Shown here one piece after another: positions 12,937 to 50,143 of a stretch of 64,000 bases of DNA. The first letter of the stretch is position 1, and each line of letters opens with the position of its first letter. Source of the stretch: Ectopseudomonas composti (GTDB lineage: Bacteria > Pseudomonadota > Gammaproteobacteria > Pseudomonadales > Pseudomonadaceae); contig NZ_FOWP01000004.1 in the NCBI RefSeq assembly GCF_900115475.1, positions 124,001 to 188,000 of the forward strand, in the 5' to 3' direction. The notes beneath the pieces were generated by a model. The model saw only the letters and a list, made by a program, of their open reading frames with translations, ran no database searches and was not told the DNA's origin. A program made the position numbers and the translations under genes.

Positions 12937-12941
12937 TGCTG

Positions 12942-32783: not shown

Positions 32784-32795
32784 ATCACATGTGAT
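32784..32795. promoter_or_regulatory. Operator-like palindrome 1 before the stress island
   Basis: ATCACATGTGAT, a perfect 12-base palindrome 41 bases before the DUF2170 start. It shares the ACATGT core with the next palindrome. Probably a regulator-binding site; no matching regulator gene is adjacent. Confidence 0.5.
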
Positions 32796-32799: not shown

Positions 32800-32817
32800 T
32801 TACATGCTCACATGTAA
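32800..32817. promoter_or_regulatory. Operator-like palindrome 2 before the stress island
   Basis: TTACATG-CTCA-CATGTAA, perfect 7-base arms around four bases, 16 bases downstream of the start of the first palindrome. It overlaps the only plausible -35 region, so binding here would be expected to repress. Confidence 0.5.
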
Positions 32818-32835: not shown

Positions 32836-33456
32836 ATGGACAACAAATCATCAGCCCATTACCAGCGTCTTTATCGTCAGCGTCTGCGTGAGCAGGGGTT
32901 GGTCAAGAAGGAAGTCTGGATATTGCCCGAGCATGCACCGCTTTTGGTCGCGTTCGAGCGCAAACTGCGCCAGCCACAGTCACTGCTGGCTTCGATGGAG
33001 AAGGAGGAGGGTATGAGCATGCCTCAAGTTTGGACCGCCCAAGCGTTGCATGAAGCGCTGGCGGCAACGGAACTGTTCCAAAGCGGGCAGGCCGGCATCG
33101 AGCTGATTCAAGGCGCCGACGCCAGCCTGCACATCACCATGCGTGAATACGGTGACCTGCCGCTGTTCATCGCCGTATTCGGCGAGCAGATCATCGTCGA
33201 AGCGCTGCTCTGGCCGGCGGCGGACGTCAAGGATATTGCGGCTTTCAACGAAGAAGTGTTGCGCACCCACAAGCTGTTCCCGCTGTCGTCCATCGGCCTG
33301 GAAAAAATGGTCGACGGGCGTGACTGCTACACCATGTTCGGTGCGCTGAGTTCGTCCTCGACCTTGTCTGACGTAGTGTTCGAGATCGAGCTGCTGGCGG
33401 ACAACGTGATCAAGGCCACCGAAGCCTATGAAGGCTTTCTCAAGACCAGCGCCTGA
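32836..33456 (+). CDS. DUF2170 (YjfI-like) protein
   Basis: 206 residues. The first 65 residues are basic and helical (HYQRLYRQRLREQGLVKKEVWILPEH), resembling a DNA-binding or adaptor segment. The rest matches DUF2170/YjfI, for example LPLFIAVFGEQIIVEALLWP. Molecular role unknown; in E. coli the homologue precedes the PspA paralogue YjfJ, as here. The ribosome-binding site is weak: AAGG lies about 16 bases before the ATG. First gene of the stress island, 14 bases before pspA. Confidence 0.8.
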   Translation: MDNKSSAHYQRLYRQRLREQGLVKKEVWILPEHAPLLVAFERKLRQPQSLLASMEKEEGMSMPQVWTAQALHEALAATELFQSGQAGIELIQGADASLHITMREYGDLPLFIAVFGEQIIVEALLWPAADVKDIAAFNEEVLRTHKLFPLSSIGLEKMVDGRDCYTMFGALSSSSTLSDVVFEIELLADNVIKATEAYEGFLKTSA

Positions 33457-33470: not shown

Positions 33471-34166
33471 ATGAATGTCTGGAGCAAAATGCTGACGGCG
33501 CTGCGTGGCGGCGCCAACGAAGTGGGTGAAGCGGTAGTCGATAGCCAGGCCCTGCGCATCCTCGATCAGGAAATCCGCGACGCCGATGTCGAGCTGCGCA
33601 AGTCCAAGGAAGCGCTGGCCGAGATCATGGCCAAGCAGAAACTGGCCAGCGACAAGGTCAACAAAAGTGCAGCGAGCATCGGCGAGTACGAACAGTACGC
33701 GCTGAAGGCGCTGGAAGCCGGCAACGAAACCCTGGCCAAGGAAGTGGCCGAGAAGATCGCCAATCTGGAAATCGAGCAGGCCAGTGAGCGCGAGCAGGCC
33801 GAAGGCTTCGCCGCCAGCGTGGCGCAACTGCGCAAGGCCGTGACCCAGGCCGAGGGCAATATCAAGCGCCTCAAGCAGCAGGTGGATACGGTCAAGGCCA
33901 CCGAAAGCGTGCAGAAGGCGCAGATGGCCGTGGCCCAGCGCTACGGTGGCTCCCAGGCCAAGCTACAGACGGCGGTCGAGTCGCTCGAGCGGATCAAGCA
34001 GAAGCAGGCCGAGCGCGCGGCGAAGATGGAGGCCTCGGCTGAACTGGCTGCCACCAGCGCACCAGACGATTCGTTGGAAGCCAAGCTGCGCGCAGCCGGT
34101 ATCAAGGCTGATAACGCCAGTGCCGACAGCGTGCTGGCGCGCTTGAAGGACAAATCCAAGGCTTGA
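33471..34166 (+). CDS. PspA/IM30 family protein
   Basis: 231 residues, almost all coiled coil. N-terminus MNVWSKMLTALRGGANEVGEAVVD, then IRDADVELRKSKEALAEIMAKQK and long heptads, the ESCRT-III-like PspA fold that binds and remodels stressed inner membrane. Closer to the YjfJ branch than to classic PspA, and no pspF, pspB or pspC gene is nearby. Strong ribosome-binding site (GAGGAG). Followed by a UUCG hairpin and the YqiJ-like gene. Confidence 0.9.
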   Translation: MNVWSKMLTALRGGANEVGEAVVDSQALRILDQEIRDADVELRKSKEALAEIMAKQKLASDKVNKSAASIGEYEQYALKALEAGNETLAKEVAEKIANLEIEQASEREQAEGFAASVAQLRKAVTQAEGNIKRLKQQVDTVKATESVQKAQMAVAQRYGGSQAKLQTAVESLERIKQKQAERAAKMEASAELAATSAPDDSLEAKLRAAGIKADNASADSVLARLKDKSKA

Positions 34167-34226: not shown

Positions 34227-34868
34227 ATGGAACTCTTCCTGCAGACTTCGCTGTCATTCCCCACTGCCATCTACAGCTTTCTGCTGTGTGTGGCGGTCAT
34301 CTATTGGCTGGTCGTCGCAGCTGGCCTGCTCGAGGTCGACCTGCTCGACGTCGAAGCCGACTCCATGATGGAAGGCAGTGGCCAGACCGAAGGCCTCGCC
34401 GGCCTGCTCTACAAGCTCAAGCTCGATGGTGTGCCGGTTACCCTGGTGCTGACGCTGCTGTTCTTCTTTGCTTGGTTCGCCTGCTATTTCATCGAGCTGT
34501 GGCTGCTGCGTCACCTGCCGCTGGGCATTCTGCGCTACCCGCTGGGGCTGGTGGTCATCGCTGGCGCCTTCGTGCTGGCTGCACCGCTGTGTGCGGCGAT
34601 TTGCCGACCGCTGCGCCCGCTGTTTCACAAGGTCGAGGCGATCAGCAGCAAATCGGTGCTGGGGCAAGTGGCGGTGGTGCGCAGTGGTCGCGTTACCGAC
34701 AGTCATGGCGAGGCTGTATTGGAGGATGGCGGCGCGGGTTTGATCCTGCGGGTACGTGCCGCCGAAGCAGCTGGATTCAAGCGTGGTGACCGCGTGGTGC
34801 TTCTGGAGTATCTGGCAGCCGAGCATGCCTATCGAGTGATTACCGAAGAAGAGTTCCGCGGCGTTTAG
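34227..34868 (+). CDS. YqiJ-like membrane protein with OB-fold tail (DUF1449)
   Basis: 213 residues. Three hydrophobic segments (about 13-35, 70-90, 105-130) are followed by a soluble beta-rich domain (about 145-213: SKSVLGQVAVVRSGRVTDSHGEAVLED...GDRVVLLEY) of the NfeD/OB type. Proteins of this class pair with flotillins, and here the flotillin gene follows directly. It probably forms an inner-membrane complex with it. AAAGGAAA precedes the ATG. Confidence 0.85.
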   Translation: MELFLQTSLSFPTAIYSFLLCVAVIYWLVVAAGLLEVDLLDVEADSMMEGSGQTEGLAGLLYKLKLDGVPVTLVLTLLFFFAWFACYFIELWLLRHLPLGILRYPLGLVVIAGAFVLAAPLCAAICRPLRPLFHKVEAISSKSVLGQVAVVRSGRVTDSHGEAVLEDGGAGLILRVRAAEAAGFKRGDRVVLLEYLAAEHAYRVITEEEFRGV

Positions 34869-34946: not shown

Positions 34947-36992
34947 ATGGAAAACGTTATTCCCTTCATCATCGGAGCGGGGCTGGTCGTCCTCTTCGTG
35001 ATCGCCCTGATCGCCCTGTTCAAGGCCTTCTATATCAAGGTTCCGCAAGGCACTGCGCTGATCGTCAACGACATGAGCTCGACGCCCAAGGTGCACTTCA
35101 CCGGATCTCTGGTGTACCCGGTGATTCACCTCAAGGAGTTCATGAAGATCTCCCTGATCACCCTGGAGGTCGACCGCCGTGCCAAGGACGGGCTGATCTG
35201 CCGCGACAACATGCGTGCCGACATCACCGTGGCCTTCTACCTGCGCGTCAACGAGACCCAGGAAGACGTGCTCAAGGTCGCCAAGGCCATCGGTGTGGAG
35301 CGTGCCTCCGATCGCGCCGCGGTGAACGAGCTGTTCAACGCCAAGTTCTCCGAAGCACTGAAGACCGTCGGCAAGCAATTCGATTTCGTTCAGCTGTTCG
35401 AGAATCGCCAAGACTTCCGTGATCGTATCGTCGAGGTGATTGGCAACGATCTCAATGGTTATGTGCTCGAAGATGTGGCCATCGACTATCTGGAGCAGAC
35501 CTCAAAGGCGTCCCTGGATCCGAGCAACATCCTCGATGCTGAAGGTATCCGCAAAATCACCGAGCTGACTGCCGCACAGAACGTCATCACCAACGAACTG
35601 GAGCGTAACGAAGAGCTGGCGATCAAGAAGAAGAACGTCGAGACCCGCGAGGCGACCCTGTCGCTGGAGCGTCAGCAGGCCGATGCCGAGGCTCGCCAGA
35701 AACGCGAGATCGAGACTATTCAGGCCCGTGAGGAAGCGGAAACCCTGAAGGTGCGCGAGGAAGAGCGTCTGAAGGCCGAGCAGGCGCGTATCCAGACTCA
35801 GCAGGAGCTGGACATCCGCGCCGAGAATCACCAGCGCGAAGTGGAAGTGGCTCAGCAGAACCGCCAGCGTGCCGTGGTCATCGAGGTGGAAAAAGTCACC
35901 CGTGCCAAGGACCTGGAAGTGGTCTCCCGCGAGCGCGAAGTCGAGTTGCAGCGCATCGAGAAGGAAAAGGCGCTGGAGGAAGAGCGCAAGAATATCGCTG
36001 GCGTGATTCGCGAGCGCGTCGCGGTCGAGAAGACCGTGGCTCAGGAAGAAGAACGCATCAAGGAAGTGCGTGAAGTGTCCGAGGCCGAGCGCATGAAGCA
36101 GGTCACCGTGCTCAATGCGCAAGCCGAAGCCGAGCAGGAACTGGTGCGCCAGGTCAAGCAGGCCGAAGCCGACGAAACCCGCTCCAAGCACAAGGCTGTG
36201 GAAATCAACAACCTGGCCCAGGCCGAGCTGGAAGCGGCGGCCAAGAGCGCCGAGGCCAAGAAGAAAATGGCCGAAGGGATCGAAGCCGAGCGCGCCGCAC
36301 CAGGCCTGGCCGATGCACGTGTGCGTGAAGTCACCGCTGCCGCCAAGGAGAAGGAAGGGCTGGCCGAGGCCCGCGTGCAGGCCGAGCGCCTGATCGCCGA
36401 AGCCAAGGGCGAGCAGGAAAAAGGTCTGGCGCTGGCACGTGTCACCGAAGCGCAAGCGGCTGCCAAGGAAAAAGACGGCCTGGCCGACGCCAAGGTGCTG
36501 GAAGAGAAACTCGGCGCCCAGGCGCGCGGCGAAGAGCAACTCGGCACTGCCAAGGCCAAGGCCACCCAGGACCTGGGCATGGCCGAGGCGCAGGTGCTGC
36601 TGGAGCGTCTGAACGCCGAAGCCGAAGGTCTGGGCAAGAAGTTCGGTGCTCTCGACGCGCTCAGCGACAATGCTCGCCAGCACGAAGAGTTCCGCATGCA
36701 GCTGGAGAAGAGCTTCGAGGAAGCCATGGCTGCCATCGCCGCCAACAAGGAAATCGCCAAGGATCAGGCCGAGGTGCTGGCCACCGCGCTGGCCAAGGCG
36801 AAGATCGAGATCGTCGGCGGCGAAGGCGACTTCTTCAACTCTTTCGCCAAGTCGCTATCGGTGGGCAAGGCCATCGAAGGTGTGGTCGGCAAGAGCCCGG
36901 TGGTGCAGGACGTACTGTCGCGCCTGCTGGCTGGCAAGGCCGCACCGGCCGCACCGGTCGTCGCACCGAGCACAGGCCCGGAGCAGGCCTGA
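34947..36992 (+). CDS. Flotillin family protein (YqiK-like)
   Basis: 681 residues. One N-terminal membrane helix (about 5-25), an SPFH/band-7 domain (about 28-220), then a long Ala/Glu-rich coiled coil (about 225-560) with repeating EAKGEQEKGLALARVTEA-type units, and a flotillin C-terminal region. It scaffolds lipid-ordered membrane patches. AAGGAG lies 9 bases before the ATG. Neighbours YqiJ and PspA point to membrane-integrity control. Confidence 0.92.
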   Translation: MENVIPFIIGAGLVVLFVIALIALFKAFYIKVPQGTALIVNDMSSTPKVHFTGSLVYPVIHLKEFMKISLITLEVDRRAKDGLICRDNMRADITVAFYLRVNETQEDVLKVAKAIGVERASDRAAVNELFNAKFSEALKTVGKQFDFVQLFENRQDFRDRIVEVIGNDLNGYVLEDVAIDYLEQTSKASLDPSNILDAEGIRKITELTAAQNVITNELERNEELAIKKKNVETREATLSLERQQADAEARQKREIETIQAREEAETLKVREEERLKAEQARIQTQQELDIRAENHQREVEVAQQNRQRAVVIEVEKVTRAKDLEVVSREREVELQRIEKEKALEEERKNIAGVIRERVAVEKTVAQEEERIKEVREVSEAERMKQVTVLNAQAEAEQELVRQVKQAEADETRSKHKAVEINNLAQAELEAAAKSAEAKKKMAEGIEAERAAPGLADARVREVTAAAKEKEGLAEARVQAERLIAEAKGEQEKGLALARVTEAQAAAKEKDGLADAKVLEEKLGAQARGEEQLGTAKAKATQDLGMAEAQVLLERLNAEAEGLGKKFGALDALSDNARQHEEFRMQLEKSFEEAMAAIAANKEIAKDQAEVLATALAKAKIEIVGGEGDFFNSFAKSLSVGKAIEGVVGKSPVVQDVLSRLLAGKAAPAAPVVAPSTGPEQA

Positions 36993-37025: not shown

Positions 37026-37097
37026 ATTGCAGAGTGGTAGTGACTTCAGCCACGCCGCTACATGACCACCTACTTTCGACCAAACAGGGAATACGTG

Positions 37098-37337
37098 ATG
37101 TCAGAGCCAAGAGATTATCTGGAGATGACCTTCCGTTCGATCCAGTGCTTCAGCAAAGACGGGCGCCTGGACGCGCAGGAGCTCAAGAGCTTGCTGGAAA
37201 TCGCCGAGCGCGATGGTGTGATCGACGATAACGAGGTGCGGGTGCTGCGCAAGATCATCGCCCAGGTGCGCCCCGAAGAGATTGACTCGGCGCTGCGCGA
37301 CAAGATCGCCATCGTCGAGAAGAAGATCGGCGCATAG
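37098..37337 (+). CDS. Small TerB/EF-hand-like helical protein
   Basis: 79 residues. Two matching segments 18 residues apart, D21-G-R-L-D-x-x-E28 and D39-G-V-I-D-x-x-E46, lie between amphipathic helices. This resembles half of a TerB domain or a degenerate EF-hand pair and suggests metal binding. ATG 37098 follows CAGGGA. Placed between the flotillin and the giant ATPase and flanked by identical short repeats. Function unknown. Confidence 0.75.
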   Translation: MSEPRDYLEMTFRSIQCFSKDGRLDAQELKSLLEIAERDGVIDDNEVRVLRKIIAQVRPEEIDSALRDKIAIVEKKIGA

Positions 37338-37526: not shown

Positions 37527-40500
37527 ATGTCGGACGCACACACACAGGACGTATTGGACAAGGCCGTCGCCGAAGGTGGCGCCTACGAGGTGCTGCACAG
37601 GCGCCTGCAGGAGCAGGGCCAGCGCCTGCGCAGTTTGACCGAAGCGCTCAATGGTCAGCGTCTGGCCGAGTTTGGCAGTAGCGCGATGGAGGCCATCGGG
37701 CGGGTGCGCATCCGCACCGAGAACAACTGCATCGCCCGCGATATCGTCCAGGTCGGCGAGTGCCTGCTGTTCGGCTACAACGTGTTCATCGGCCTGAAGA
37801 AGGAAACCCACGTCGCCGACGTGTTCTCCCTCTACCGACTGGTGGAAAACGCCGAAGGCTACGACGCCGAGCCGGTACCGCTGAACGGCAGCTTCCTGGC
37901 CCAGGCCAGCTTCGTCGCAGACTTCAACGAGCTGTATACCTACTACAAGAACACCCGCCTGCTGCAACTGGCCATTCGTGACGGCAAGCTGCTGGCGAGC
38001 TTCCAGATCGGTGAGCGAATCACCGACATCCGCGTGTTCCGTTGGTCGATCTCCACCGACGGCAAGGATGTCCGCTACATCGATAACCGCGGTGAGCGCG
38101 ATATCGCGCTGCCGGCGCCGTTCGACTTCGAATGGCAGAAGACTACCCGCGAGATGGTGGTCATGGGCCGCCATCCGCACGTCAACATCCTCGACACCGT
38201 GTTCATCGAAACCGTCGGTGGCGACCTGACCATCAAGGTCGAGAACAACACCCAGGACGGCCAGGGTATCTACCGCGAAGCGGTGGTCGACAAGACCCAG
38301 TCGCTGGACGACGCACAGATCGAATACGCCCGCCTGGGCAGCCTGATCCTGCTCAAGGTGCTGCCGTACCGCGAAGAGCAGTGGCGTTACCTGGTATTCA
38401 ACAGCCTGACCCGCCAGGTCGAGCGTATCGATGCCATCGGCCTGGCCTGCGTACAGCTGCCGGAAGACCACGGCATCATCTTTCCCGGTGGTTATTACCT
38501 GCAGAACGGCGAGCACAAGACCTTCGAACAATCGATGGTCGGTATGCGCTTCAAGCGCTCGGTGCGCTCGCCCAACGGCGAGGACGTGCAGTACATCTTC
38601 TATCACCCGGAAGAAGGCCGCGCGGCGCTGTTCACTTACAACATGATCAACCGCCAGTTGCACAACCCGATCTTCGGCCACGGCTACGCACGCCTGGAAG
38701 ACGGGCGCATGGTGATCTTCTCCGCCGAGGGCAGCGAGCCGACCCGCATCCACCCGATGCAGATCTGGCAGACGCCGTTCGAGAGCGAGGATTACGCCGC
38801 CCGCCAACCGGCGCGCAGCGGTTTCTTCGGGCGTATTGGCAACGCCGAACTGGTGCGCGGCGTATCCGATCTGCTCAACCTCAGCCGTGAGATCGACAGT
38901 CGTGAAGTGTCGGTGGAACGCTACACCCAGCTGTGTCAGAACACCCGCCGCCTGTTCGACGTCTACCACTGGCTGGGCGACGCCCAATGCGCCGAGCTGG
39001 CGCCGCTGCTGCGTGAAGTGGCGGCCACTTCCGAGTTGGTATTGGATGAGTTCGAGAAGGTCGAGAGCATTCGCCAGCAGTCCAGCCGGGCCATGGCCGA
39101 GGCCGAGTCGCGGCAGAAGAGCCTGCTCTCGGGCCTGCTGGTGGACAGCTGGGATGAGGTGCAGCACTTCGTCGAGGCGCTCAACGCCATCACCGCGCAG
39201 CGCGGCCAGTTGCTGACCATCCGCGACTACCGCTACATCGACGTGGCGCGTATCGACGCCATGGAAACCGAGCTGCTCGAAGCCCAGGAGCGCGTGGCCA
39301 CGGCCACCTCCGCCTTCCTCGCCAGCGACGCCGCGCTGCAGCCCTACGTGCAGCGCCTGAGCGAACTGGACGGCCTGGCGCAGAAGGCCGAGACCGTCAC
39401 CCAACTGAATGAGCCGCTGGTCGAGATGCAGGAGATGGCCGGCAACCTCGATATGCTGTCGAGCCTGATGGCCTCGCTGAAGATCGACGATGCCACCCAG
39501 CGCACGCGCATCGTCGAGTCGATTTCCGAAGTCTACGCTCGGCTCAACCAGGCCAAAGCGCGTGCCGAGCAGCGGCGCAAGGGCCTGGGTTCGGCCGAGA
39601 CCGTGGCGCAGTTCGGCGCCCAGTTCAAACTGTTCAGCCAGGGCATCACCAACGCCCTGGCGCTGGCCCAGGACCCGGAGAAGTGCGACGAGCAGTCGTC
39701 GCGCCTGCTGGTGCAGCTCGAAGAGCTGGAAAGCCAGTTCGGCGACCAGGAGCAGTTCCTCAGCGACATCCTCGGCAAGCGCGAAGAACTGCTGGAAACC
39801 TTCGAGGCACACAAGCAGAGCCTGCTCGACGAGCGTCAGCGGCGCGCTCAGGGTGTGCTCGATGCTGCCCAGCGCATCCTCGACAGCCTGAGCCGGCGCA
39901 CCGCGCGCCTGACCCAGATGGAGGAACTCAACGCCTTCTTCGCCGCCGACCCGCTGATTCTCAAGCTGCGCGAAATGGCCGAACGCCTGCGCGAGCTCAA
40001 GGACAGCGTCAAGGCCGACGATGTCGAGGCGCGTTTGAAGGCTGCCCGTGACCAGGCGGTGCGCGCCCTGCGTGACAAGAGCGAGCTGTTCGAAGAGGGC
40101 GGCAACGTCATCAAGCTCGGCCCGCGCCACCGTTTCAGCGTTAACACCCAGGAACTCGATCTGACCCTGATGCCGCGCGGCGACGGCCTGTATCTGCACC
40201 TGACCGGTACCGACTTTCTCGAACCGCTGCGCGATGAGATCCTGGAGGGCTTGCGCGACTACTGGCAGGTGTCGCTGGAGTCCGAATCGCCTGCGCTGTA
40301 TCGCGCAGAATACCTCGCCGGGCTGGTGCTGGACGCCGCACTGGGTGGGCGTGAAGGGTTGACCCTGGATCTGCTCAAGACCCATCTGGCGCAGCCGGAT
40401 GACCTGACCCGCTTGATCCGCGACTTTGCCGCGCCGCGCTACAAGGATGCCTACGAGAAGGGTATTCATGACCACGATGCCGCGCTGATCCTGATCCAAC

Positions 40501-42764
40501 TGCTGCCGCTGCGCGAAAGTGCTGGGCTGCTGCGTTACGCGCCAGCCGCGCGGGGCTTTGCCGCGTTGTTCTGGAACCGCTGGGGGCAGGATATCGAGGC
40601 CGAGCTGTGGCCGGAGCGTGCGCGCAGCAGCCTGCACCTGCGGCAGATGTTCGGCAGTGAAGGCGGCGTGCAGCGCCTGCAGGAAGAGATCGCAGTAGCC
40701 ATGCAGCGCTTCCTCGCTCAGCACCCGTTGGCGGTGACTGCGGCGCAGCGCCAGGCAGCCGCGGCCTACCTGGTCGAGGAGCTGGCGGCCAAGCCCATCG
40801 AGTTCACCTTCAGCAAGTACGCCCGGCAACTGCTCGACACCCTGCAGCAGCGTATGCAGGCCAGTCATGTCTGGGACGACTACCGCGCTGCCTTGGACAA
40901 CCTGCGCGGCCGGCCGGTGCAGCGCTGGTCGCTGGCGCAGACCTGGCTCGAAGGCCTGTGCGCGCAGGACGCCGCCATGGCCGAGCTGGCCGACTATGTG
41001 CCCGAGGCGATCGCCATCAGTCTGCTGGACGACGACTTCCCGCGCCGCTTCACCGAGGTCGACCTACGTTTCACCGTCAGCGGCCTGCTCGGCGACCATC
41101 CGCGTGTGCAGGACGGCGCCCTGGTGCTGGCCATCGACGATTACTTTGCTCGCCTGCAGCAGCATCTGGACGACTTCGTACCGCAGTTGCAGCGCTACCA
41201 GACGCTGCGCCAGGAGGTCATCAACCGCGAGCGCCAGGCCCTGCGCCTGAGCGAGTTCAAGCCACGGCCGCTGTCGTCCTTCGTGCGTAACAAGCTGATC
41301 AACGACGTGTACCTGGGTTTCATCGGCGATAACCTGGCCAAGCAGATGGGCACCGCCGGCGAGAACAAGCGCACCGACCTGATGGGCCTGTTGATGCTGA
41401 TTTCGCCGCCCGGCTACGGCAAGACCACGCTGATGGAATACGTGGCGCATCGCCTGGGGCTGATCTTCATGAAGATCAACGGCCCGGCGCTCGGCCACGA
41501 GGTGCGTTCCATCGACCCGGCGCAGGCGCCGGACGCTACCTCGCGCCAGGAACTGGAGAAACTTAACCTGGCGCTGGAAATGGGCAACAACGTGATGCTC
41601 TATGTCGATGACATCCAGCACACCCACCCGGAATTTCTGCAGAAATTCATCTCGCTGTGCGACGGCACACGGCGCATCGAAGGCGTGTGGAAGGGCAAGA
41701 CCAAGACCTACGACATGCGTGGCAAGAAGTTCTGCGTGGTGATGAGCGGCAACCCGTACACCGAGTCCGGCGATGTGTTCAAGATCCCCGATATGCTCGC
41801 CAACCGGGCCGACATCTACAACCTCGGTGATACCCTGGGTGGCATGCAGGAAGCCTTCGCGCTGTCCTACATCGAGAACAGCCTGACTTCCAACCCGGTG
41901 CTGGCGCCGCTGGCCACTCGCGACATGGCCGACGTCTACCGTTTCGTCGCCAAGGCCGAGGGCAAGCCGTTCTCGGCCAACGAGCTGAGCCACACCTACA
42001 GCACTGCCGAGATCAACGAGATCAGTTCTACCCTGCAGCGTTTGATGCAGGTGCGTGACGTGGTCGGTCGGGTCAACCAGCAGTACATCGTCAGCGCTGC
42101 GCAGGCCGACAGCTACCGCACCGAGCCGCCGTTCAAGCTGCAGGGCAGCTACCGCAACATGAACAAGATGGCCGAGAAGATCAGCGCGGTGATGAACGAC
42201 GCCGAGCTACTGCAACTGATCGCCGATCACTACCAGGGCGAGTCGCAACTGCTCACTACCGGTGCTGAGGAAAACCTGCTCAAGCTCGCCGAGCTGCGTG
42301 GCAACCAGACGCCCGAACAGGTCGAGCGCTGGGCACAGATCAAGCGTGACTTTATGCGCAACAAGGCCATGGGTGGCAGCGACAGCGATGTCGGTGGCCG
42401 CATGGTTGCGCAGCTCAATGATCTGGTGGAGAGCGTGCGTGGTCTGGGCGCGGGCAAGCCGGCCGTTGAGTCGCCGAGTATTCCTTGGGAGCAACTGCTG
42501 GCCGGGCTGGACAACCTCGGCAAGCTGCGTCCGCAGGTGGAGGTGGTTGCGCCGCCGCAGTCGGGCACGCAAAAATTGCTCGAGAACCTGGCCGATAGCC
42601 TGGAGAACAGCTTCCTGCCGCTGATCAAGGCGATGGACAAGAAGATCGATATCGACTTGCGTACCCACAATCGCATGCTGGAAATCTCCACCCAACTGCG
42701 CGACCTTGGCACGTTGCTTGGGCAGGAGCAGCGCAGTGACGTCTCGGATAACGAGGCGCCGTGA
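37527..42764 (+). CDS. Giant AAA ATPase, DUF3686 / 'DNA repair ATPase' type
   Basis: About 1745 residues. An N-terminal helical part is followed by a long beta-rich region (about 50-440) and extensive coiled coil (about 450-880). Near 1290 comes an AAA module with Walker A PPGYGKTTLMEY, Walker B VMLYVDDIQ (about 1355) and a sensor-like VVMSGNPYTESGD. The annotation 'DNA repair ATPase' used for this family is not backed by evidence I know. The genomic link is to PspA/flotillin membrane stress. ATG 37527 is chosen because AGGAT sits 7 bases upstream; ATG 37518 is the alternative. The stop overlaps the rhomboid gene start. Confidence 0.87.
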   Translation: MSDAHTQDVLDKAVAEGGAYEVLHRRLQEQGQRLRSLTEALNGQRLAEFGSSAMEAIGRVRIRTENNCIARDIVQVGECLLFGYNVFIGLKKETHVADVFSLYRLVENAEGYDAEPVPLNGSFLAQASFVADFNELYTYYKNTRLLQLAIRDGKLLASFQIGERITDIRVFRWSISTDGKDVRYIDNRGERDIALPAPFDFEWQKTTREMVVMGRHPHVNILDTVFIETVGGDLTIKVENNTQDGQGIYREAVVDKTQSLDDAQIEYARLGSLILLKVLPYREEQWRYLVFNSLTRQVERIDAIGLACVQLPEDHGIIFPGGYYLQNGEHKTFEQSMVGMRFKRSVRSPNGEDVQYIFYHPEEGRAALFTYNMINRQLHNPIFGHGYARLEDGRMVIFSAEGSEPTRIHPMQIWQTPFESEDYAARQPARSGFFGRIGNAELVRGVSDLLNLSREIDSREVSVERYTQLCQNTRRLFDVYHWLGDAQCAELAPLLREVAATSELVLDEFEKVESIRQQSSRAMAEAESRQKSLLSGLLVDSWDEVQHFVEALNAITAQRGQLLTIRDYRYIDVARIDAMETELLEAQERVATATSAFLASDAALQPYVQRLSELDGLAQKAETVTQLNEPLVEMQEMAGNLDMLSSLMASLKIDDATQRTRIVESISEVYARLNQAKARAEQRRKGLGSAETVAQFGAQFKLFSQGITNALALAQDPEKCDEQSSRLLVQLEELESQFGDQEQFLSDILGKREELLETFEAHKQSLLDERQRRAQGVLDAAQRILDSLSRRTARLTQMEELNAFFAADPLILKLREMAERLRELKDSVKADDVEARLKAARDQAVRALRDKSELFEEGGNVIKLGPRHRFSVNTQELDLTLMPRGDGLYLHLTGTDFLEPLRDEILEGLRDYWQVSLESESPALYRAEYLAGLVLDAALGGREGLTLDLLKTHLAQPDDLTRLIRDFAAPRYKDAYEKGIHDHDAALILIQLLPLRESAGLLRYAPAARGFAALFWNRWGQDIEAELWPERARSSLHLRQMFGSEGGVQRLQEEIAVAMQRFLAQHPLAVTAAQRQAAAAYLVEELAAKPIEFTFSKYARQLLDTLQQRMQASHVWDDYRAALDNLRGRPVQRWSLAQTWLEGLCAQDAAMAELADYVPEAIAISLLDDDFPRRFTEVDLRFTVSGLLGDHPRVQDGALVLAIDDYFARLQQHLDDFVPQLQRYQTLRQEVINRERQALRLSEFKPRPLSSFVRNKLINDVYLGFIGDNLAKQMGTAGENKRTDLMGLLMLISPPGYGKTTLMEYVAHRLGLIFMKINGPALGHEVRSIDPAQAPDATSRQELEKLNLALEMGNNVMLYVDDIQHTHPEFLQKFISLCDGTRRIEGVWKGKTKTYDMRGKKFCVVMSGNPYTESGDVFKIPDMLANRADIYNLGDTLGGMQEAFALSYIENSLTSNPVLAPLATRDMADVYRFVAKAEGKPFSANELSHTYSTAEINEISSTLQRLMQVRDVVGRVNQQYIVSAAQADSYRTEPPFKLQGSYRNMNKMAEKISAVMNDAELLQLIADHYQGESQLLTTGAEENLLKLAELRGNQTPEQVERWAQIKRDFMRNKAMGGSDSDVGGRMVAQLNDLVESVRGLGAGKPAVESPSIPWEQLLAGLDNLGKLRPQVEVVAPPQSGTQKLLENLADSLENSFLPLIKAMDKKIDIDLRTHNRMLEISTQLRDLGTLLGQEQRSDVSDNEAP

Positions 42765-43309
42765 GACGAGGTTGGTTCGCCGAGCTGCGTCCGCTGCTGG
42801 TGATCAGCGGCGTGATGCTGCTGGTGCAACTGGTCAATGGCGCCCTCGGAGGCGCCTTGAATGTCTGGGGACTGGTGCCTCGGCATATCGAGGCGCTGCC
42901 CGGCATTCTTTTTGCGCCCTGGCTGCATGGCAGCTGGGCGCATCTACTGAGCAACCTCAGTGGCCTGTTGGTACTCGGCAGCCTGGTGCTGCTGCGTTCG
43001 CGCCGCGATTTCTTCTTCGCCAGTGCCTTCATCATCATCGGCAGTGGCGTGCTGGTCTGGCTGTTTGGCCGCACCGGCCTGCATGTCGGCGCCAGTGGCT
43101 GGTTGTTCGGCTTCTGGGGACTGTTGTTGGCAAGGGCCTGGTTCGAGCGCAGCCTGCTTGACCTGTTGCTCGCCGTGCTGGTGTTCTTCCTCTACGGTGG
43201 TTGGTTCTTTGGCCTGCTGCCGCGCGCTGGGGTTTCCTTCGAATACCACCTGGCGGGGGCTTTTTGTGGCGTTTTATATGCCGCGTTGAGCCGCCGCACA
43301 CATCGATAA
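42761..43309 (+). CDS. Rhomboid family intramembrane serine protease
   Basis: 182 residues with about six hydrophobic helices. Rhomboid motifs are complete: HGSWAHLLSN (His56, His61, Asn65), GASG with the catalytic Ser112, and EYHLAG with His163. It should cleave transmembrane segments within the inner membrane. GTG start overlapping the stop of the giant ATPase by 4 bases, so the two are translationally coupled. The PLD-like gene follows after 12 bases. The substrate is unknown. Confidence 0.88.
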   Translation: MRRGWFAELRPLLVISGVMLLVQLVNGALGGALNVWGLVPRHIEALPGILFAPWLHGSWAHLLSNLSGLLVLGSLVLLRSRRDFFFASAFIIIGSGVLVWLFGRTGLHVGASGWLFGFWGLLLARAWFERSLLDLLLAVLVFFLYGGWFFGLLPRAGVSFEYHLAGAFCGVLYAALSRRTHR

Positions 43310-43321
43310 AAGGGACTTTAT

Positions 43322-44011
43322 ATGGATTTCAACCGCCTCGATCAGCAACTGCGTGACAGCCTGGTCGACTTGCGCCTGAGCAATGAGGAGCGTGACGAGC
43401 TGCGCCAGCTGGGCAGTGAATTGAGCAGCGATCAGGTGCGTTTCATGCGCAACCGCGCCTTCGCTCTGGCCCGTGAATTGATGCGTGAGCCGGAGAACGT
43501 CGAGCCGGCGCTGAAGTGGCTGGAACAGGTGATCAAGACCCTCGACAGCGTCGGCAGCGCGCCGCGTGTGGAGCACGCCAGCGCGCACTTCAGTCCGGGC
43601 GAGAGCTGCCGGCGCAAGATCCGCGAGCTGTGCCGCCAGGCACGCAAGAGCGTGGATATCTGCGTCTACACCATCTCCGACGATCAGCTCAGCGAGGAGA
43701 TACTCGCCTGCCATGAGCGCGGCATCGCCGTACGGGTGATCAGCGACAACGAAAAGCAGTTCGATGTCGGTAGTGATATCCAGTGGCTGCGTGACAAAGG
43801 CGTGCCGCTGCGCATCGATGCGGGGCCCTATCACATGCACCACAAATTCGCCCTGTTCGATGGCCGCCTGCTGCTCAACGGCAGTTTCAACTGGACGCGC
43901 AGTGCCAGCACCAGCAACGAGGAAAACCTGCTGGTGATTGACCATCCGCAATTGCTGGCGACTTACAGTCGTGAATTCGAAGCGCTCTGGGCACGTTACG
44001 CAGGCAACTGA
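43322..44011 (+). CDS. Single-HKD phospholipase D/Nuc-type protein
   Basis: 229 residues. N-terminal helical region (about 1-80) of unknown kind, then a PLD fold with one HKD motif: His173, Lys175, Asp180 in HMHHKFALFD, followed by NGSFNWTRSA. One motif per chain means dimerisation is needed, as in the nuclease Nuc and in mitochondrial PLD6. Activity could be on DNA, RNA or phospholipid. AAGGGA before the ATG. Its stop overlaps the helicase start (TGATG). Confidence 0.87.
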   Translation: MDFNRLDQQLRDSLVDLRLSNEERDELRQLGSELSSDQVRFMRNRAFALARELMREPENVEPALKWLEQVIKTLDSVGSAPRVEHASAHFSPGESCRRKIRELCRQARKSVDICVYTISDDQLSEEILACHERGIAVRVISDNEKQFDVGSDIQWLRDKGVPLRIDAGPYHMHHKFALFDGRLLLNGSFNWTRSASTSNEENLLVIDHPQLLATYSREFEALWARYAGN

Positions 44012-46722
44012 TGACCCATCCTCACTCCCACCAGCTCCTCGGCTTCTATCGCAGTTGCTATCTGGCCAACAGTCGCGACCTGGACCTGGATAACCTCGGC
44101 AAGCTACCCGCCAATCGCTGGGCATGGCTCGATGGTCGCGAGGAGCTGGCCAGTGGCGGCGTGCCGCTATTGCCGTTGTCGGCCGAGCTGGGGAGTGCGC
44201 TGGCCGAGGCCCAGGCGCTGTATCAGCGTGAACTGCAACTGGTCTATGGCGTGTTGCCAATCTGCGGTCGTCTGCAGCTGGAAACCGGCGCCTCACAGGC
44301 GATTTGCGGTCCGTTGTTCTACTACGAAGCGAGCCTGCAACCAACGGCGGATGGGCAGAGTCACTTGCTCGCCATCGACCCGCAGCAGGTGCATGGCAAC
44401 TGGCGTCTGTTGCGCCGCCTATTCGATGAAAGCGGCAACGATAGCCTCGATGGCCTGCCACTGCCGTCGGCAATACTGGATGCTGCCTCGCTGGGACAGT
44501 TGCTCGCCTGGGTGGCACGCAATACACAGGTGCGTGAGGTCAGCGAGGCAGCAGGGTTCCCGCAATTGATGGGTGATGAGGCGTTGGCCAAGGCCCAGCG
44601 CCGTCGCAGTTTGTCGCTGCAGGCAGGGGCCTTCGTTGCGCTGGTGCCGCGCGGCAGCGGTAGCCGTGGTATCGCCCATGAGTTGCAGCTGTTGCAGGAG
44701 GCCAAGCGCCTGTCGCCCGCTTTGTTGCAGCTACTGGGAGAGACACCGCCTGTGCGGCAGGCCGGCTCGACCAGCACGCCGCAGCGCCTGCCTGCTCAGC
44801 TCAGTACGGCCCAGTGCCGAGCCTTGGAAAATGCCGCACGTTATCCACTGAGCCAGATTTCCGGTCCACCAGGTACCGGCAAAAGCTACAGCCTGGCGGC
44901 CCTGGCGCTGGATCGCTACCTGCAGGGTGAGAGCGTGCTGCTGGTCAGTCGCAGCGCCCAGGCGGTGCGAGTGATCGCGCACAAGCTGCGCGAGGATTTC
45001 GGTCTGCGTGACGGCGTGCTCGAAGGTGATGGTCAGAGCCTGCGCCAGTCCCTGCGCGAACGTCTGGAGCGGCTGTTGCAAGGCGAGATTTCCGACGTCT
45101 CCGAGCAGTTCGAGGTACGCCAGCGCAGCGAACTCGAAGTGCTGACGCAGGCTGAGCTGCGCCTGTCGACGGACTTTCGCAAGCGCTGCGAGCAGGCCAT
45201 ACGCTGGAGCCGCCTGCTGCTACGCGCCGAGCGCGGCAGCCTGGCCTTCTGGCAACGCTGGCTGCAGGTGCCCTGGGTGCGCAACCGTATCGGCAGCAGC
45301 GTGCGCCCCTGGGCGTTGCTCGACGAGTTGCGTGATTGCCAGCAGCGCCGCCAGCTTCTCAGTCGCGAGCATCTGAACAGCCATCGCAGCCTGGCACTCA
45401 AGCGCCTATTGGTCAGCGACCGTGCGCTGTTCGTGCGTTATAACCAGGCCATCCGTGCGCGCAATTCACAGCGCCAGTTGGCCCTGTTCGAGGACATCGA
45501 CCCGGCGCGCCTGTTGGCCGCCTTCCCGATCTGGGTGGTGACCCTGGACGAATTGCATCGCCTGCTGCCATTGCGCCCTGAGCTGTTCGACGTGATGGTC
45601 ATGGACGAGGCTACCCAGTGCGACATCGCCTCGGCGCTACCGGCCTTTCAGCGCTGCAAGCGCGCGGTGGTGACCGGTGATGCGCGTCAGTTGCGGCACA
45701 TCTCCTTTCTCTCCCGCGTGCGCGAAACGCAGTTGTTGCAACGCGCCGGCCTGCAGACCGAGGAGCGCGAGGCCTGGAGCTACCGTGACAACAGCGTGCT
45801 CGATCTGGTCGGTCTGCAACTGGCCAGCCAAGAGGCGGTGGTGTTTCTCGACGAGCACTTTCGCAGCCGTCCAGCGCTGATCCGCTTCAGCAATGAGCTG
45901 TTCTACGATCAGCGCCTGCGAGTGATGAAGGAGCGCCCGGGCGGTGAGGTCTGCGACAGCCTGCAGTTGCTGCGCATCGAAGGGCAGCGCGGACGCAACG
46001 GTGTCAATGAGGCGGAAGTGGAGCGGGTGCTGGAGTTGGTTGCGGCGCATTTGGCCGAATATCGCGGCAGTCCGCTCAAGCCGAGCATCGGTGTGCTGTC
46101 ACCGTTTCGCGATCAGGTCGAGCGCATCCGTACGCGCATGGGCGAAACGCTGCCGCTGGAGCAACTGCGAGAATTCCGTCTGCTGGTGGATACGCCGTAT
46201 GGCTTTCAGGGCGAAGAACGCGACCTGATGATCCTCAGCTTCGCCATCGACCGCGATTCCAGTCAGGCAGCCAGCTACCTCAATCGTGCCGATCTGTTCA
46301 ATGTCGCCGTCACCCGTGCCCGCGAGCGCCAGTTGTTGCTGTTCAGCGGCGACGAGCGCCAACTGCCCGCCACGCATCTGTTGCGCCGCTACCTGGAATT
46401 CCTGCACAAGCCTGCTGTGAGTGGGCAGGCGGGGGCCGTGGAAGTCGCCCGCCAGAACCTGTGTCAGGCGCTCGAAGGGCAGGGTGTCAGCGTGTGGAGC
46501 CACTATCCAGTGGCCGGACAGATACTGGATCTGTTCTGCCGCCGTGGTGACAAATGCCTGGCTATCGACCTGATCGGCTTTCCGGGGGAGGGCGAGGGCT
46601 TCCTCGAACTGGAACGCTATCTGGTGCTGGCGCGGGCAGGGCTGGAAACCTTGCCGCTGAGTTTTGGCCTCTGGCACGAGGCGCCGGAGCAGGCGCTACA
46701 GGCGGTGCTGGACCGGCTCTGA
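44011..46722 (+). CDS. Superfamily 1 helicase with C-terminal nuclease-like domain
   Basis: 903 residues. An N-terminal region (1-260) of unknown fold precedes Walker A GPPGTGKS at 285-292. Motif II is VMDEATQCD (about 532), motif III TGDARQL, and motifs V/VI DTPYGFQGEERDLMIL and NVAVTRARERQLLLF, typical of the Upf1/DNA2-like group. The last 80 residues (HYPVAGQILDLFCRRGDKCLAIDLIG) resemble the Vsr/DUF559-type endonuclease fold, but the usual Lys is not evident, so this domain may be inactive. Start overlaps the HKD gene stop, implying one functional unit. Confidence 0.87.
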   Translation: MTHPHSHQLLGFYRSCYLANSRDLDLDNLGKLPANRWAWLDGREELASGGVPLLPLSAELGSALAEAQALYQRELQLVYGVLPICGRLQLETGASQAICGPLFYYEASLQPTADGQSHLLAIDPQQVHGNWRLLRRLFDESGNDSLDGLPLPSAILDAASLGQLLAWVARNTQVREVSEAAGFPQLMGDEALAKAQRRRSLSLQAGAFVALVPRGSGSRGIAHELQLLQEAKRLSPALLQLLGETPPVRQAGSTSTPQRLPAQLSTAQCRALENAARYPLSQISGPPGTGKSYSLAALALDRYLQGESVLLVSRSAQAVRVIAHKLREDFGLRDGVLEGDGQSLRQSLRERLERLLQGEISDVSEQFEVRQRSELEVLTQAELRLSTDFRKRCEQAIRWSRLLLRAERGSLAFWQRWLQVPWVRNRIGSSVRPWALLDELRDCQQRRQLLSREHLNSHRSLALKRLLVSDRALFVRYNQAIRARNSQRQLALFEDIDPARLLAAFPIWVVTLDELHRLLPLRPELFDVMVMDEATQCDIASALPAFQRCKRAVVTGDARQLRHISFLSRVRETQLLQRAGLQTEEREAWSYRDNSVLDLVGLQLASQEAVVFLDEHFRSRPALIRFSNELFYDQRLRVMKERPGGEVCDSLQLLRIEGQRGRNGVNEAEVERVLELVAAHLAEYRGSPLKPSIGVLSPFRDQVERIRTRMGETLPLEQLREFRLLVDTPYGFQGEERDLMILSFAIDRDSSQAASYLNRADLFNVAVTRARERQLLLFSGDERQLPATHLLRRYLEFLHKPAVSGQAGAVEVARQNLCQALEGQGVSVWSHYPVAGQILDLFCRRGDKCLAIDLIGFPGEGEGFLELERYLVLARAGLETLPLSFGLWHEAPEQALQAVLDRL

Positions 46723-46729: not shown

Positions 46730-48460
46730 TCATCCCACTCCCTGGATGTGAATTTGCCCCCAGCTGCGCCAGGACTGGTCGTCGTTCAGACACTCCTGCA
46801 GTTGCGTTTGCAGGCGCTGATAGCGTTGCGCATCCGTCTCCTTCAGCGCCGCGATGGAGTGGTGCAGGTGCTGCAGGTTGGAGGTGCCACAGCTGCCGAT
46901 CAGCGTGTGCAGGTCGATGCAGGCGAGCGCCTCTTCCAGCAGACCGGCATCGAGATAAGCCGTCATCAGCGGCTGCTTCATGTCGTCATCGACAAGCTCG
47001 CGGGTCAACATGTCCCTGGCTTGCTCGAGCTCGCCCATGTCGATCAGAGCCTGCATGATTTCGTTGTAGTGATACCGCGCGTCTTCTGGCGCGATATCCT
47101 CGTCTGTCTCCAGTTGCTGGCGCAGCTGCAGCAGTAGATCCCTGGCCGCCGTGGGTTGACCCAGCTTATCCAGTAGCTGGCTGTAGAGGATGCGTTCGCT
47201 CAGGCTGTCCTCGGGGTCGAGTTCGGCGTGCAGCCGTTCGGCCTCTTCGAGGAAATTGCGCAACGACCAGGTGTCGCGCTGAGCAGGCGCGCGACTGGCT
47301 TGCTCACGTAGCAGGTGCTGCAGATGATCAAGGCGCATGCCTGGCCATGAGGCCTTGCCTTGTTCGCCGGCGTGTAGGCGCTCGGCCTGGCGCCGCAGGC
47401 TGGTCGCCCATGACGCGTTGCTCTGCGCGTGCTCCTCGGCCAGGCTCAATACCAGCCAGTGCTGGACCGAGGCATCCAGGCGCTGCATTTCTCGATCCAG
47501 TAGTTGCTGGGCCTGGGTGATGTCGCCACGTCGTGCATGCCAGCTGACATGGCACTGCAGCAGTTGCGACGTCAGACCGTCCTTCTGCGTTGCAAGCAGG
47601 CGCTGCAAGAGCTCGGGACGCTGGGCCTTGATGAAATGCTCGAAGAGCTGCGGCGCATCGATCAGGTAGGTTTTCGAGATGTCTGTCGCAGCAAGCAGTT
47701 CCAATGCCTCGTCATAGCGTCCGTGGGCCGCCAGCAGCTCCACGATGCTGTATCCGGGCAGATCGCTGCGCTGGGCAAGTTGCAGCAGGTGTGGATAGCG
47801 TTGCAGGTCGGCCAGTGTTTGCAGCAGTGGGCGCCAGCTGAAATCGGGTTCGTTATTGCTGTCGAGCTGTGTCTCGACCCTGGCCAGTACTTCATCGGCC
47901 TGCTCTGGCTGGTCACACGCCTGTCGCAGGCGAGCGAGATCCAGCAGTTGCCCTTCACTGATCTGCAGATTCAGGTCCAGGGCATCCAGTGCTTTGCGAG
48001 CCTCTTGCGTTTTACCCTCGGCCAATAGCAGCGTGCTGTGCGTCAGCGGTGACTTGGAAGCGGTAACGTCGAAACGTTTCTGCAGCTGGAGAGCCTTGTC
48101 GGTATCGCCTCTGTTCACCAACTCCTGCAGCATCGTCTGCAGGGCCTGCTCACGGTAAGCGGAGTCAAGTTTCCAGAGCAGCTCAAGCGCCTCTTCTTCG
48201 CGATCCAGCAGCATCAATCTTGAGCAGAGTGAGACGTGGGCGAGTTGCCAGGCGTCGCCCCAAAGCTGTGCGGCCAGCTGCAGGGCGAGGTCGGGGGCGC
48301 TGCCTTGCAGCACGAATATGCGGTTGAGTTGAGTGGCCTCGGTGGGGGTGAGGCGAGCTGTGCCGCCCTGCAGCTCGAGTTTGGGTTCTTCAGGCGCATG
48401 GGACACGTGAAGAACGAACAGAATAACGACGACAGCGATGACTCCAACGAACAGCTCCAC
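46730..48460 (-). CDS. Membrane-anchored helical-repeat (TPR-like) protein
   Basis: 576 residues. One N-terminal membrane helix (VGVIAVVVILFVLHV) is followed by about 540 residues of helical hairpins (for example EEALELLWKLDSAYREQALQTML and QEARKALDALDLNL), suggesting TPR-like scaffolding. Orientation of the tail is not certain. GTG start with AAGGA placed 8 bases upstream. It converges on the helicase gene with a 7-base gap. No enzymatic motif and no family name that I can give. Confidence 0.75.
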   Translation of the reverse strand: MELFVGVIAVVVILFVLHVSHAPEEPKLELQGGTARLTPTEATQLNRIFVLQGSAPDLALQLAAQLWGDAWQLAHVSLCSRLMLLDREEEALELLWKLDSAYREQALQTMLQELVNRGDTDKALQLQKRFDVTASKSPLTHSTLLLAEGKTQEARKALDALDLNLQISEGQLLDLARLRQACDQPEQADEVLARVETQLDSNNEPDFSWRPLLQTLADLQRYPHLLQLAQRSDLPGYSIVELLAAHGRYDEALELLAATDISKTYLIDAPQLFEHFIKAQRPELLQRLLATQKDGLTSQLLQCHVSWHARRGDITQAQQLLDREMQRLDASVQHWLVLSLAEEHAQSNASWATSLRRQAERLHAGEQGKASWPGMRLDHLQHLLREQASRAPAQRDTWSLRNFLEEAERLHAELDPEDSLSERILYSQLLDKLGQPTAARDLLLQLRQQLETDEDIAPEDARYHYNEIMQALIDMGELEQARDMLTRELVDDDMKQPLMTAYLDAGLLEEALACIDLHTLIGSCGTSNLQHLHHSIAALKETDAQRYQRLQTQLQECLNDDQSWRSWGQIHIQGVG

Positions 48461-48703
48461 GACGACTTCCTTATCAGCTAACGATCCCCGGCCGGCCTGT
48501 TGCTCATGCTAGGCCGAGGCGTTTTATACGGATTGTCAGGCCGGCTTACAACCGCATTGCACAGCATTTGCCAACCGGTTTGAGGGTGAGGCGCATGTTC
48601 CCGGCAGCGGGGAGCGTGGCAAGCTAATCTCGCGGGATGGCTTGACGAACGAAACGAGGGTGGCCTAGGTCTTCTGATAGACCATCAATGTGCCGGGGGG
48701 CTC

Positions 48704-50143
48704 ATGACACTGCGCAACGCTGTTCAACTGATTACCTATCCCGACCGCCTGGGGCGCAACCTGGGGGAACTCCACCAATTCCTGGATCGGCACCTGGGGG
48801 ATGCCCTGGGCGGGGTGCATATCCTGCCGCTGTATCCGTCCAATGCCGATGGCGGCTTCTCGCCGCTTACCCACATGGAGGTGGATCCGCGCTACGGCGA
48901 CTGGGCGGATGTCGAGCGCATCTCCGCACGCTTCGATCTGTGCGTCGATCTGGTGATCAGTCACATCGCGGACGAGTCACCGGAGTTTCTGGATTTTGTG
49001 GCCCACGGTCAGGATTCGCCCTACGCCGATCTGTTCGTTCAGGTAGACAGCTTCGGCGAAATCACCCATGACGATCTGGCCAAGATCCATATCCGCAAGG
49101 AAAAGGAGCCGTTTCGCGAGGTACGCCTGGCCAATGGCGAGAGCTGTAGGGTCTGGTGCACCTTCACCGAGCGACAGATCGACCTCAATTACGATTCGCC
49201 GAAAACCTACCAACTGATGGAACAGTACATGGCCTTTCTCGCTGCACGCGGGGTCAAGCTGTTCCGTCTGGATGCCTTTGGCTACACCACCAAGCGTATC
49301 GGCACCAGCTGCTTTCTGGTGGAGCCGAACGTGTACCGCATCCTCGAGTGGTTCCGCGAAACCGGGGCCAAGTACGAGGCTGAGATGCTGCCGGAGGTGC
49401 ATGACCACATCAGCTACCAGTACGCCATCTCACGGCGGCACATGCGCCCCTACGGCTTCGCCCTGCCGCCTCTGGTATTGCACGCATTGCTCAGTGGCAG
49501 CAGCCGCTACCTGAAGAACTGGTTGCGCATGTGCCCGCGCAACCAGATCACCGTGCTCGATACCCATGACGGCATCTGTATCCCGGATGTCGAAGGCATG
49601 CTGCCTGAGGCGCAGATCCAGTATCTGATAGACGAGGTCTCGACACGCAGCGCCGACCCCATCATGCGCCGCTCGGCGGTGAACGTGCACAGCGTCGGTG
49701 CCATCTATCAGCTGACCTGCACCTTCTACGAGGCATTGATGCGTAACGACGAGGCTTACATCGCCGCACGTGCGCTGCAGTTCTTCGTGCCCGGTATCCC
49801 GCAGGTCTACTATGTTGGCCTGTTGGGCGGTTGCAACGATTTCGATCTGCTCGAGCAGACCGGCGAGGCGCGCGACGTCAACCGCCATTACTACAGCCTG
49901 GAGGAGGCCGAGCAGGCCTTGCAGCAACCGCTGGTGCAGCGCTTGCTGGCGCTGATGCGGTTTCGTTGCCAGCACCCGGCCTTTGATGGTCGCTTCGAGC
50001 TGAATTATTCAGCTGACGATCAACTGCTGCTGGCCTGGCGCCATGGTGAACACTACTGCCGTCTGCATCTCGATTTGAGCAGCTTGCAAGCGATCATCGA
50101 TTACACCGATGAGCAACTGAAGGTCAGCCGCATGACCTGCTGA
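48704..50143 (+). CDS. GH13_18 sugar phosphorylase (sucrose phosphorylase-like)
   Basis: 479 residues. Alpha-amylase-type barrel of the sucrose-phosphorylase subfamily: nucleophile Asp190 in FRLDAFGYTTK, acid/base Glu231 in MLPEVHDH, transition-state stabiliser Asp289 in VLDTHDG. It is predicted to phosphorolyse an alpha-glucoside to glucose 1-phosphate. Related bacterial enzymes act on sucrose, glucosylglycerol or glucosylglycerate, and the sequence alone does not decide. No sugar transporter is nearby, which favours an internal compatible solute as substrate. G-rich ribosome-binding site before the ATG. Confidence 0.83.
   Translation: MTLRNAVQLITYPDRLGRNLGELHQFLDRHLGDALGGVHILPLYPSNADGGFSPLTHMEVDPRYGDWADVERISARFDLCVDLVISHIADESPEFLDFVAHGQDSPYADLFVQVDSFGEITHDDLAKIHIRKEKEPFREVRLANGESCRVWCTFTERQIDLNYDSPKTYQLMEQYMAFLAARGVKLFRLDAFGYTTKRIGTSCFLVEPNVYRILEWFRETGAKYEAEMLPEVHDHISYQYAISRRHMRPYGFALPPLVLHALLSGSSRYLKNWLRMCPRNQITVLDTHDGICIPDVEGMLPEAQIQYLIDEVSTRSADPIMRRSAVNVHSVGAIYQLTCTFYEALMRNDEAYIAARALQFFVPGIPQVYYVGLLGGCNDFDLLEQTGEARDVNRHYYSLEEAEQALQQPLVQRLLALMRFRCQHPAFDGRFELNYSADDQLLLAWRHGEHYCRLHLDLSSLQAIIDYTDEQLKVSRMTC

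Follow-up and report, generated by a model that had tools for sequence, protein, structure and literature searches.

The anti-phage system Mokosh encodes a COG1112-type SF1 helicase together with a PLD-family enzyme, and in mitochondria the SLP2-PARL-YME1L complex holds an SPFH-type protein, a rhomboid and an AAA protein on one membrane. In Pseudomonas aeruginosa PA14, RT-PCR placed bacA to bacF in one co-transcribed operon, and BacB to BacF levels in a bacA mutant were 6.1- to 13.5-fold higher, according to the part of the published report available to us (PMC10948618). The CesT/Tir-PspA operons described by Ravi et al. (PMC11237479, also available in part) combine YqiJ and a band-7/flotillin protein with an AAA+ beta-propeller ATPase and, in some Proteobacteria, an HKD hydrolase; the main text of that source as available never uses the word "rhomboid", and no helicase figures in its account of these operons.

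We analyzed a 64,000-nucleotide stretch of DNA from Ectopseudomonas composti (the window; genome size, 5.39 Mb), for which a first-pass annotation had proposed that a giant AAA ATPase, a rhomboid protease, an HKD enzyme and an SF1 helicase form a new coupled system. These four genes are the 3' end of a bac operon (bacABCDEF of P. aeruginosa) rather than a stand-alone cassette or a four-part defence system. The bac-operon identity of the region is well supported, and the locus is a known membrane-stress operon plus an intramembrane protease, with a helicase that is optional and found in few relatives. The arrangement that had been described was confirmed by the open reading frame coordinates: the four genes share one strand and are joined by a 4-base overlap, a 12-base gap and a 1-base overlap (TGATG). 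They close a plus-strand string that runs from bacA to the helicase, with overlapping genes in its distal part and twin palindromes in front of bacA only, and are preceded on the same strand by genes for a DUF2170 protein (bacA), PspA (bacB), two membrane proteins (bacC and bacD) and an 80-residue protein (Table 1). Two further proposals were likewise supported: the ATPase is part of a membrane-stress (PspA) island, and the genes resemble a single transcription unit.

Table 1. Features of the bac operon in the window (positions are those of the window)
Feature	Position	Strand	Basis or remarks
Twin palindromes TYACATGTRA	32785-32794 and 32808-32817		just upstream of bacA
bacA	32836..33456	+	NCBIfam NF050185 biofilm formation regulator BacA, 353.6 bits (equivalog cut-off 300, passed); DUF2170 (CesT/Tir-like)
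bacB, PspA/IM30 family	33471..34166	+	PF04012, 188 bits
bacC, small membrane protein, YqiJ-like by position	34227..34868	+	synteny, hydrophobic segments
bacD, one N-terminal hydrophobic segment (1-34), YqiK/flotillin-like by position	34947..36992	+	synteny
80-aa EF-hand/TerB-like protein	37095..37337	+	weak Pfam matches below cut-off
bacE, DUF3686 giant AAA+ ATPase, 1745 aa	37527..42764	+	PF12458, 691 bits; AAA_5, 28 bits (cut-off 22)
Rhomboid intramembrane protease, 182 aa	42761..43309	+	PF01694, 73.3 bits (cut-off 22.6)
bacF, single-HKD enzyme, 229 aa	43322..44011	+	PLDc_2, 99.4 bits (cut-off 27)
SF1 (UPF1/SEN1-like) helicase, 903 aa	44011..46722	+	AAA_11 and AAA_12 over cut-off

By Pfam and synteny, bacB (PspA), bacE (DUF3686) and bacF (PLD) keep the order of the bac operon in the window. 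The locus of P. aeruginosa PA7 (L119) reads bacB-bacC-bacD-bacE-PLD-yaeQ-recJ with bacA ahead, and therefore, by synteny, the DUF3686 ATPase is bacE and the PLD gene is bacF. While the window resembles PA7 in its gene order before yaeQ-recJ, it has three further genes: the 80-aa gene, one for a rhomboid that separates bacE from bacF, and one for a helicase downstream of bacF; neither a rhomboid nor a helicase was found at the PA7 locus. The window also matches the CesT/Tir-PspA operons of Ravi et al. in core composition and in having an HKD hydrolase, as far as the available part of that source describes them (PMC11237479). Thus, the pairing of the ATPase with an HKD hydrolase is already known from published operons (PMC11237479 and PMC10948618, each as available in part), whereas for the link between rhomboid and PspA operons we found no report in a literature search that was thin on subscription journals. 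A search of the literature on DUF3686 returned no match.

Neither bacC nor bacD had a Pfam match over cut-off, and bacD had no sequence relative in the PDB; a bacC relative in another genome (L152) matched YqiJ_N at 10.7 bits, below the cut-off of 23. Their labels, YqiJ for bacC and YqiK/flotillin for bacD, were taken from the published operon and would fit by position, length and hydrophobic segments. The 80-aa gene sits between bacD and bacE in many mapped loci. For BacE, a PDB search returned RuvB-type P-loops only, and Pfam detected no protease domain; in the bacE tree, the window groups with Pseudomonas chengduensis, P. mendocina FFL34, P. sediminis and their relatives. Between the operon and yaeQ-recJ (46730-50143) lies a variable spot that holds a TPR-like gene, a GGDEF gene, sucrose phosphorylase or nothing, depending on the genome.

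An alignment scan for the PLD protein in named genomes gave 136 relatives, and we analyzed the loci of the best 80 of these 136. Four of them (L116, L131, L134 and L136) were counted by tblastn without gene calling around the PLD gene, and three genomes occur both in this set and in the family search described below (L107/L042, L112/L043 and L114/L048). Among the 80 loci, bacE adjoins bacF in 79, a rhomboid lies between the two in 50, and helicase sequence follows the PLD gene in 18 (14 of them full length). All four genes occur together in 17 loci; a further 33 have the ATPase and rhomboid without the helicase, 28 have the ATPase alone, 1 has the ATPase and helicase, and 1, from Aquimonas (L118), has none of the other three. 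The L116 sequence stops 145 bases past the PLD gene, leaving 79 loci assessable for the helicase, and 61 of these 79 contain no helicase sequence. A fixed four-gene block is rejected by these gene-content counts, and with it the claims that the four genes make up one coupled system and that the last three come and go together: across the best 80 of 136 loci, presence varies gene by gene.

The 79 genomes of the family gave a similar list of partial combinations. DUF3686 occurs in 14 and the rhomboid subfamily in 10, and 6 have a PLD relative at 71% identity or more, each time next to DUF3686. Any SF1 match to the helicase was found in 29 genomes and a long relative in 2, namely the window's own genome and G040, whose copy is interrupted by a stop. 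In the near relative G042, the ATPase, rhomboid and PLD are 94 to 95% identical to those of the window, and a close helicase is absent; a remote SF1 match lies elsewhere in that genome. Three Budviciaceae loci among the best 80 of 136 (L131, L134 and L136) carry ATPase-rhomboid-PLD, and none of nine other DUF3686 loci in a 369-genome sample of the class has a rhomboid or PLD neighbour. At four Lysobacter/Luteimonas loci (L130, L132, L133 and L137; locus positions about 8100-10000), the rhomboid slot between bacE and bacF is occupied by a gene of the TelA family together with a partner, the TelA assignment being by Pfam on L132 and by 77 to 90% identity on the others.

On the bacE tree, the distribution of the helicase needs at least seven changes of presence and that of the rhomboid at least five. 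All four genes have low dN/dS relative to the window (medians over 14 pairs of 0.09 for the helicase, 0.08 for bacE, 0.08 for the rhomboid and 0.06 for the PLD gene). The gene overlaps are also more than chance, because 46 of the 50 loci with both genes offer a start codon that gives the 4-base overlap of bacE and the rhomboid, and because the TGATG junction between the PLD gene and the helicase is present in all 14 full-length helicase loci (both counts from the best 80 of 136) as well as in the window, that is, in 15 of 15 intact copies.

Rhomboid proteases are recognized by a Ser/His dyad (GxSG, H) and an HxxxN motif. The active site annotated for the window (S112 and H163) is indeed intact: H61, N65, S112 and H163 are invariant in all nine aligned rhomboids, the window included. 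Gene context links the subfamily with PspA operons of two kinds, which is new here. A PspA- or DUF3686-operon context surrounds the gene in 10 of the 10 family genomes with a match (79 searched): it adjoins DUF3686 in five (G000, G042, G012, G041 and G029) and directly follows PspA in the other CesT/Tir-PspA operon in five (G017, G030, G040, G052 and G044). By Pfam, the further genes of this second operon type are Ion_trans_2 (an ion channel), DUF2491, DUF350, DUF1190 and GSP_synth (representatives, L053 and L054). In G044, the rhomboid of the second operon is split, and the 329-aa open reading frame that lies between its two pieces (L055, 7986-9701) is probably an insertion.

Beyond the family, the rhomboid of the distant genome G425 is the last gene of a second-type operon. 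Across the 369 class genomes, the subfamily occurs in 72, DUF2170 in 27 and both in 8, and among these 8 the two lie close together in G000 and G425 only, so the rhomboid-PspA link is confined to some lineages; five other rhomboid loci inspected in class genomes have no PspA neighbour. In the rhomboid tree, whose long branches meet and call for caution, the bac rhomboids form one side of a branch with a support of 97, and bac and second-operon rhomboids group together with a support of 93, excluding G425. Rhombosortase was rejected as an identity (TIGR03902, 33.9 bits; equivalog cut-off, 84), and the rhomboid profile had no sequence relative in the PDB at 0.001.

The HKD motif of BacF is intact, as annotated, with H173, K175 and D180 invariant in 37 of 37 sequences, the window included. 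Among solved structures, BacF appears nearest to MitoPLD/Zucchini, the mitochondrial cardiolipin hydrolase, a relationship that is new here. Its profile matched mitochondrial cardiolipin hydrolase best in the PDB (136.7 bits for 9lkx_K and 128.2 bits), followed by the bacterial endonuclease Nuc (70.4 bits) and NucT (51.2 bits), and a single-sequence search returned the same order. The predicted structure (pLDDT, 87.6) has a four-helix N-terminal domain (residues 1 to 80); with this model, Foldseek ranked 4ggj best; by E-value, mouse Zucchini came first and Nuc third, whereas the TM-score put Nuc slightly above mouse Zucchini (TMt, 0.80 versus 0.73). MitoPLD has an N-terminal membrane anchor, a transmembrane segment. 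BacF thus shares the HKD core of MitoPLD (PLD6), its best match in the PDB by sequence and by Foldseek E-value, but it carries the four-helix domain and no transmembrane segment (top 19-residue hydropathy, 0.57). Lipid and nucleic acid cannot be told apart as its substrate by sequence. In L093 and L103 (10001-10684), bacF most resembles the P. straminea/P. daroniae type beside a bacE of the window type, a mismatch that suggests allelic or gene replacement.

The helicase, whose best PDB match is SEN1, is, judging from its junctions, dN/dS and distribution, coupled to BacF, under purifying selection and patchy, and this too is new here. Of the 18 loci with helicase sequence among the best 80 of 136, 14 read full length and 4 are broken or partial: internal deletions affect L060 and L061, the L107 copy is broken, and L109 retains residues 557 to 903 only. 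What the first-pass annotation called a "nuclease-like tail" matches MTES_1575, a restriction-endonuclease-like family, only weakly (15.5 bits in the window and 13.5 to 17.7 bits in five of five sequences; cut-off, 38.2). Within this C-terminal domain, D840 and D853 are conserved in seven of seven sequences, and the lysine two residues past D853 is absent. The AlphaFold model of the helicase has a mean pLDDT of 50.7. A profile search of the 369 class genomes at 1e-60 found four further helicases with a related N terminus and the same C-terminal motif, and a plasmid search at 1e-30 found one distant helicase, on a Persicobacter record. At L143, the locus of one of the four class helicases, a TelA gene (11789-12967) begins 18 bases after the helicase gene.

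Upstream of bacA, the two palindromes are 23 bp apart and are the only two exact matches to TYACATGTRA in the 5.39-Mb genome, again a new finding. The region before the DUF2170 gene was readable in 44 loci, 35 of them bac type, and the pair is present in 34 of these 35 at a spacing of 22 to 26 with at least 9 of 10 matches per site (31 of 32 after the duplicates L042/L107, L043/L112 and L048/L114 were dropped); the exception, L100, has 8-of-10 sites only. The twin palindromes are also conserved in bac operons of other families. None of the nine rows of the second operon type (six distinct) has a pair at a spacing of 22 to 26: L053/L014 and L055 have one exact palindrome, L056 and L057 have one 9-of-10 copy, and L054 and L158 have none above 8 of 10. 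The palindromes are probably the operator of the bac operon and a candidate binding site for BacA. Complete bac-type BacA proteins begin with a conserved segment of ~60 residues before DUF2170 (32836-33018 in the window), which is MazE-like below cut-off in three of four cases and may be a ribbon-helix-helix. In PA7, this segment is in frame, with the palindromes ahead of its ATG. The BacA of PA14 was crystallised with 139 residues, according to the available part of that report (PMC10948618), and the crystallised protein seems to lack the N-terminal segment. We infer that BacA may be an autorepressor acting through this segment.

A sigma54 site has been proposed for the PA14 operon (PMC10948618, as available in part). 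We found no sigma54 consensus with two or fewer mismatches in the 300 bases before bacA, a scan that itself performed at chance level over the window, and GG-N10-GC has no fixed place in the 220 bases (190 in L045) upstream of full-length bacA in 16 loci. Scans for sigma70 sites (0 versus 3.0 expected) and terminators (13 versus 11.1 expected) did no better than shuffled sequence.

The best explanation of these data, to which we give a probability of roughly 0.6, is that the window carries a bac-type CesT/Tir-PspA operon whose role is to maintain the inner membrane under stress and whose distal half consists of these four genes; its effectors would be the rhomboid and the MitoPLD-like enzyme, with the helicase as an option. 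The functions of the rhomboid, BacF and the helicase are predicted from sequence. BacA would repress the operon at the twin palindromes until membrane stress releases it, and PspA and the flotillin-like BacD would then assemble on the membrane. BacE, an AAA+ protein, may remodel these PspA/BacD assemblies as Vps4 does ESCRT-III, and the rhomboid may cut a membrane protein inside the PspA/BacD platform as PARL does beside SLP2. The likeness to SLP2-PARL-YME1L is a functional analogy only, no protease domain having been found in BacE. BacF, predicted to be soluble, would cleave a phosphodiester at the membrane, with cardiolipin as the first candidate, and the helicase would be an add-on made together with BacF and probably acting on nucleic acid.

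BacF could instead be a nuclease and not a lipase, cutting single-stranded RNA or DNA in the manner of Nuc and Zucchini, with the helicase feeding it where present. We regard this idea, which overlaps the other readings, as a serious one that falls somewhat short of even odds: Nuc, NucT and Zucchini, the single-HKD relatives that BacF matched, are nucleases, BacF has no membrane segment, and the helicase is coupled to it in all 15 intact loci (the window and 14 of the best 80 of 136), but most BacF loci in that set lack a helicase, and the constant partners of BacF are those of a membrane operon. Another reading, in which BacF and the helicase are a two-gene nucleic acid defence module of the Mokosh kind, fired when a PspA-type sensor detects a phage-perturbed inner membrane, seems to us quite unlikely. 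Like Mokosh, the window and 14 other intact loci (best 80 of 136) place an SF1 helicase and a PLD-family enzyme side by side, with TGATG coupling in every one; the helicase is patchy, broken or partial in 4 of its 18 loci, and has a C-terminal domain of restriction-like type, in which seven of seven sequences share two acidic residues. PADLOC scored it at 149 bits against MkoC and 88 bits against MkoA (profile positions 583 to 1068 of 1112) and the PLD protein weakly against DrmC, MkoC and MkoB (280 to 421 of 610). These matches to MkoA, MkoB and MkoC are partial, however, and none is full length, the MkoC match being limited to part of the helicase core (669 to 943 of 1136). Moreover, the BacF PLD usually comes without a helicase (61 of 79 assessable loci from the best 80 of 136) and in the setting of a PspA operon, the four distant class helicases have no PLD or rhomboid relative at their loci, phage records gave no match to the helicase at 1e-10, and pattern-based scans of viral contigs found no helicase or PLD relative.

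An alternative that we consider unlikely, though less so than the Mokosh-like module, is that the rhomboid gene, bacF and the helicase gene merely ride on the bac promoter as unrelated passengers and that their overlaps reflect nothing but genome compaction. The gene-by-gene variation among the best 80 of 136 loci, the repeated changes on the bacE tree (at least seven for the helicase and five for the rhomboid) and the different genes found before yaeQ-recJ (GGDEF, TPR-like or sucrose phosphorylase) would all be expected of passengers. Against this stand the adjacency of bacE and bacF in 79 of these 80 loci, the occurrence of the rhomboid in one or the other of two PspA operon types in every family genome that has a match (10 of 10), the conserved overlaps and the low dN/dS of all four genes. 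The most speculative possibility, and in our view a very doubtful one, is a true "phage shock" defence, in which the PspA/flotillin platform would sense membrane damage by phage, the rhomboid would release a signal, and BacF and the helicase, produced as a coupled pair, would destroy nucleic acid or cardiolipin so that infection stops; if true, a single operon would combine nucleases of the Mokosh type with a membrane-stress response.

On the reading that we favor, that of a membrane-maintenance operon, PspA, a bacterial protein related to ESCRT-III, counts a rhomboid protease among its recurring partners in two operon types, and a MitoPLD-like enzyme accompanies the rhomboid. The bac operon would be a bacterial setting that unites four proteins, each with a parallel at the mitochondrial membrane: one flotillin-like, one rhomboid, one AAA and one MitoPLD-like. 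The palindromes give grounds to re-examine the proposed sigma54 promoter and offer a handle on the control of bac, an operon that is linked to biofilm formation and virulence in P. aeruginosa.
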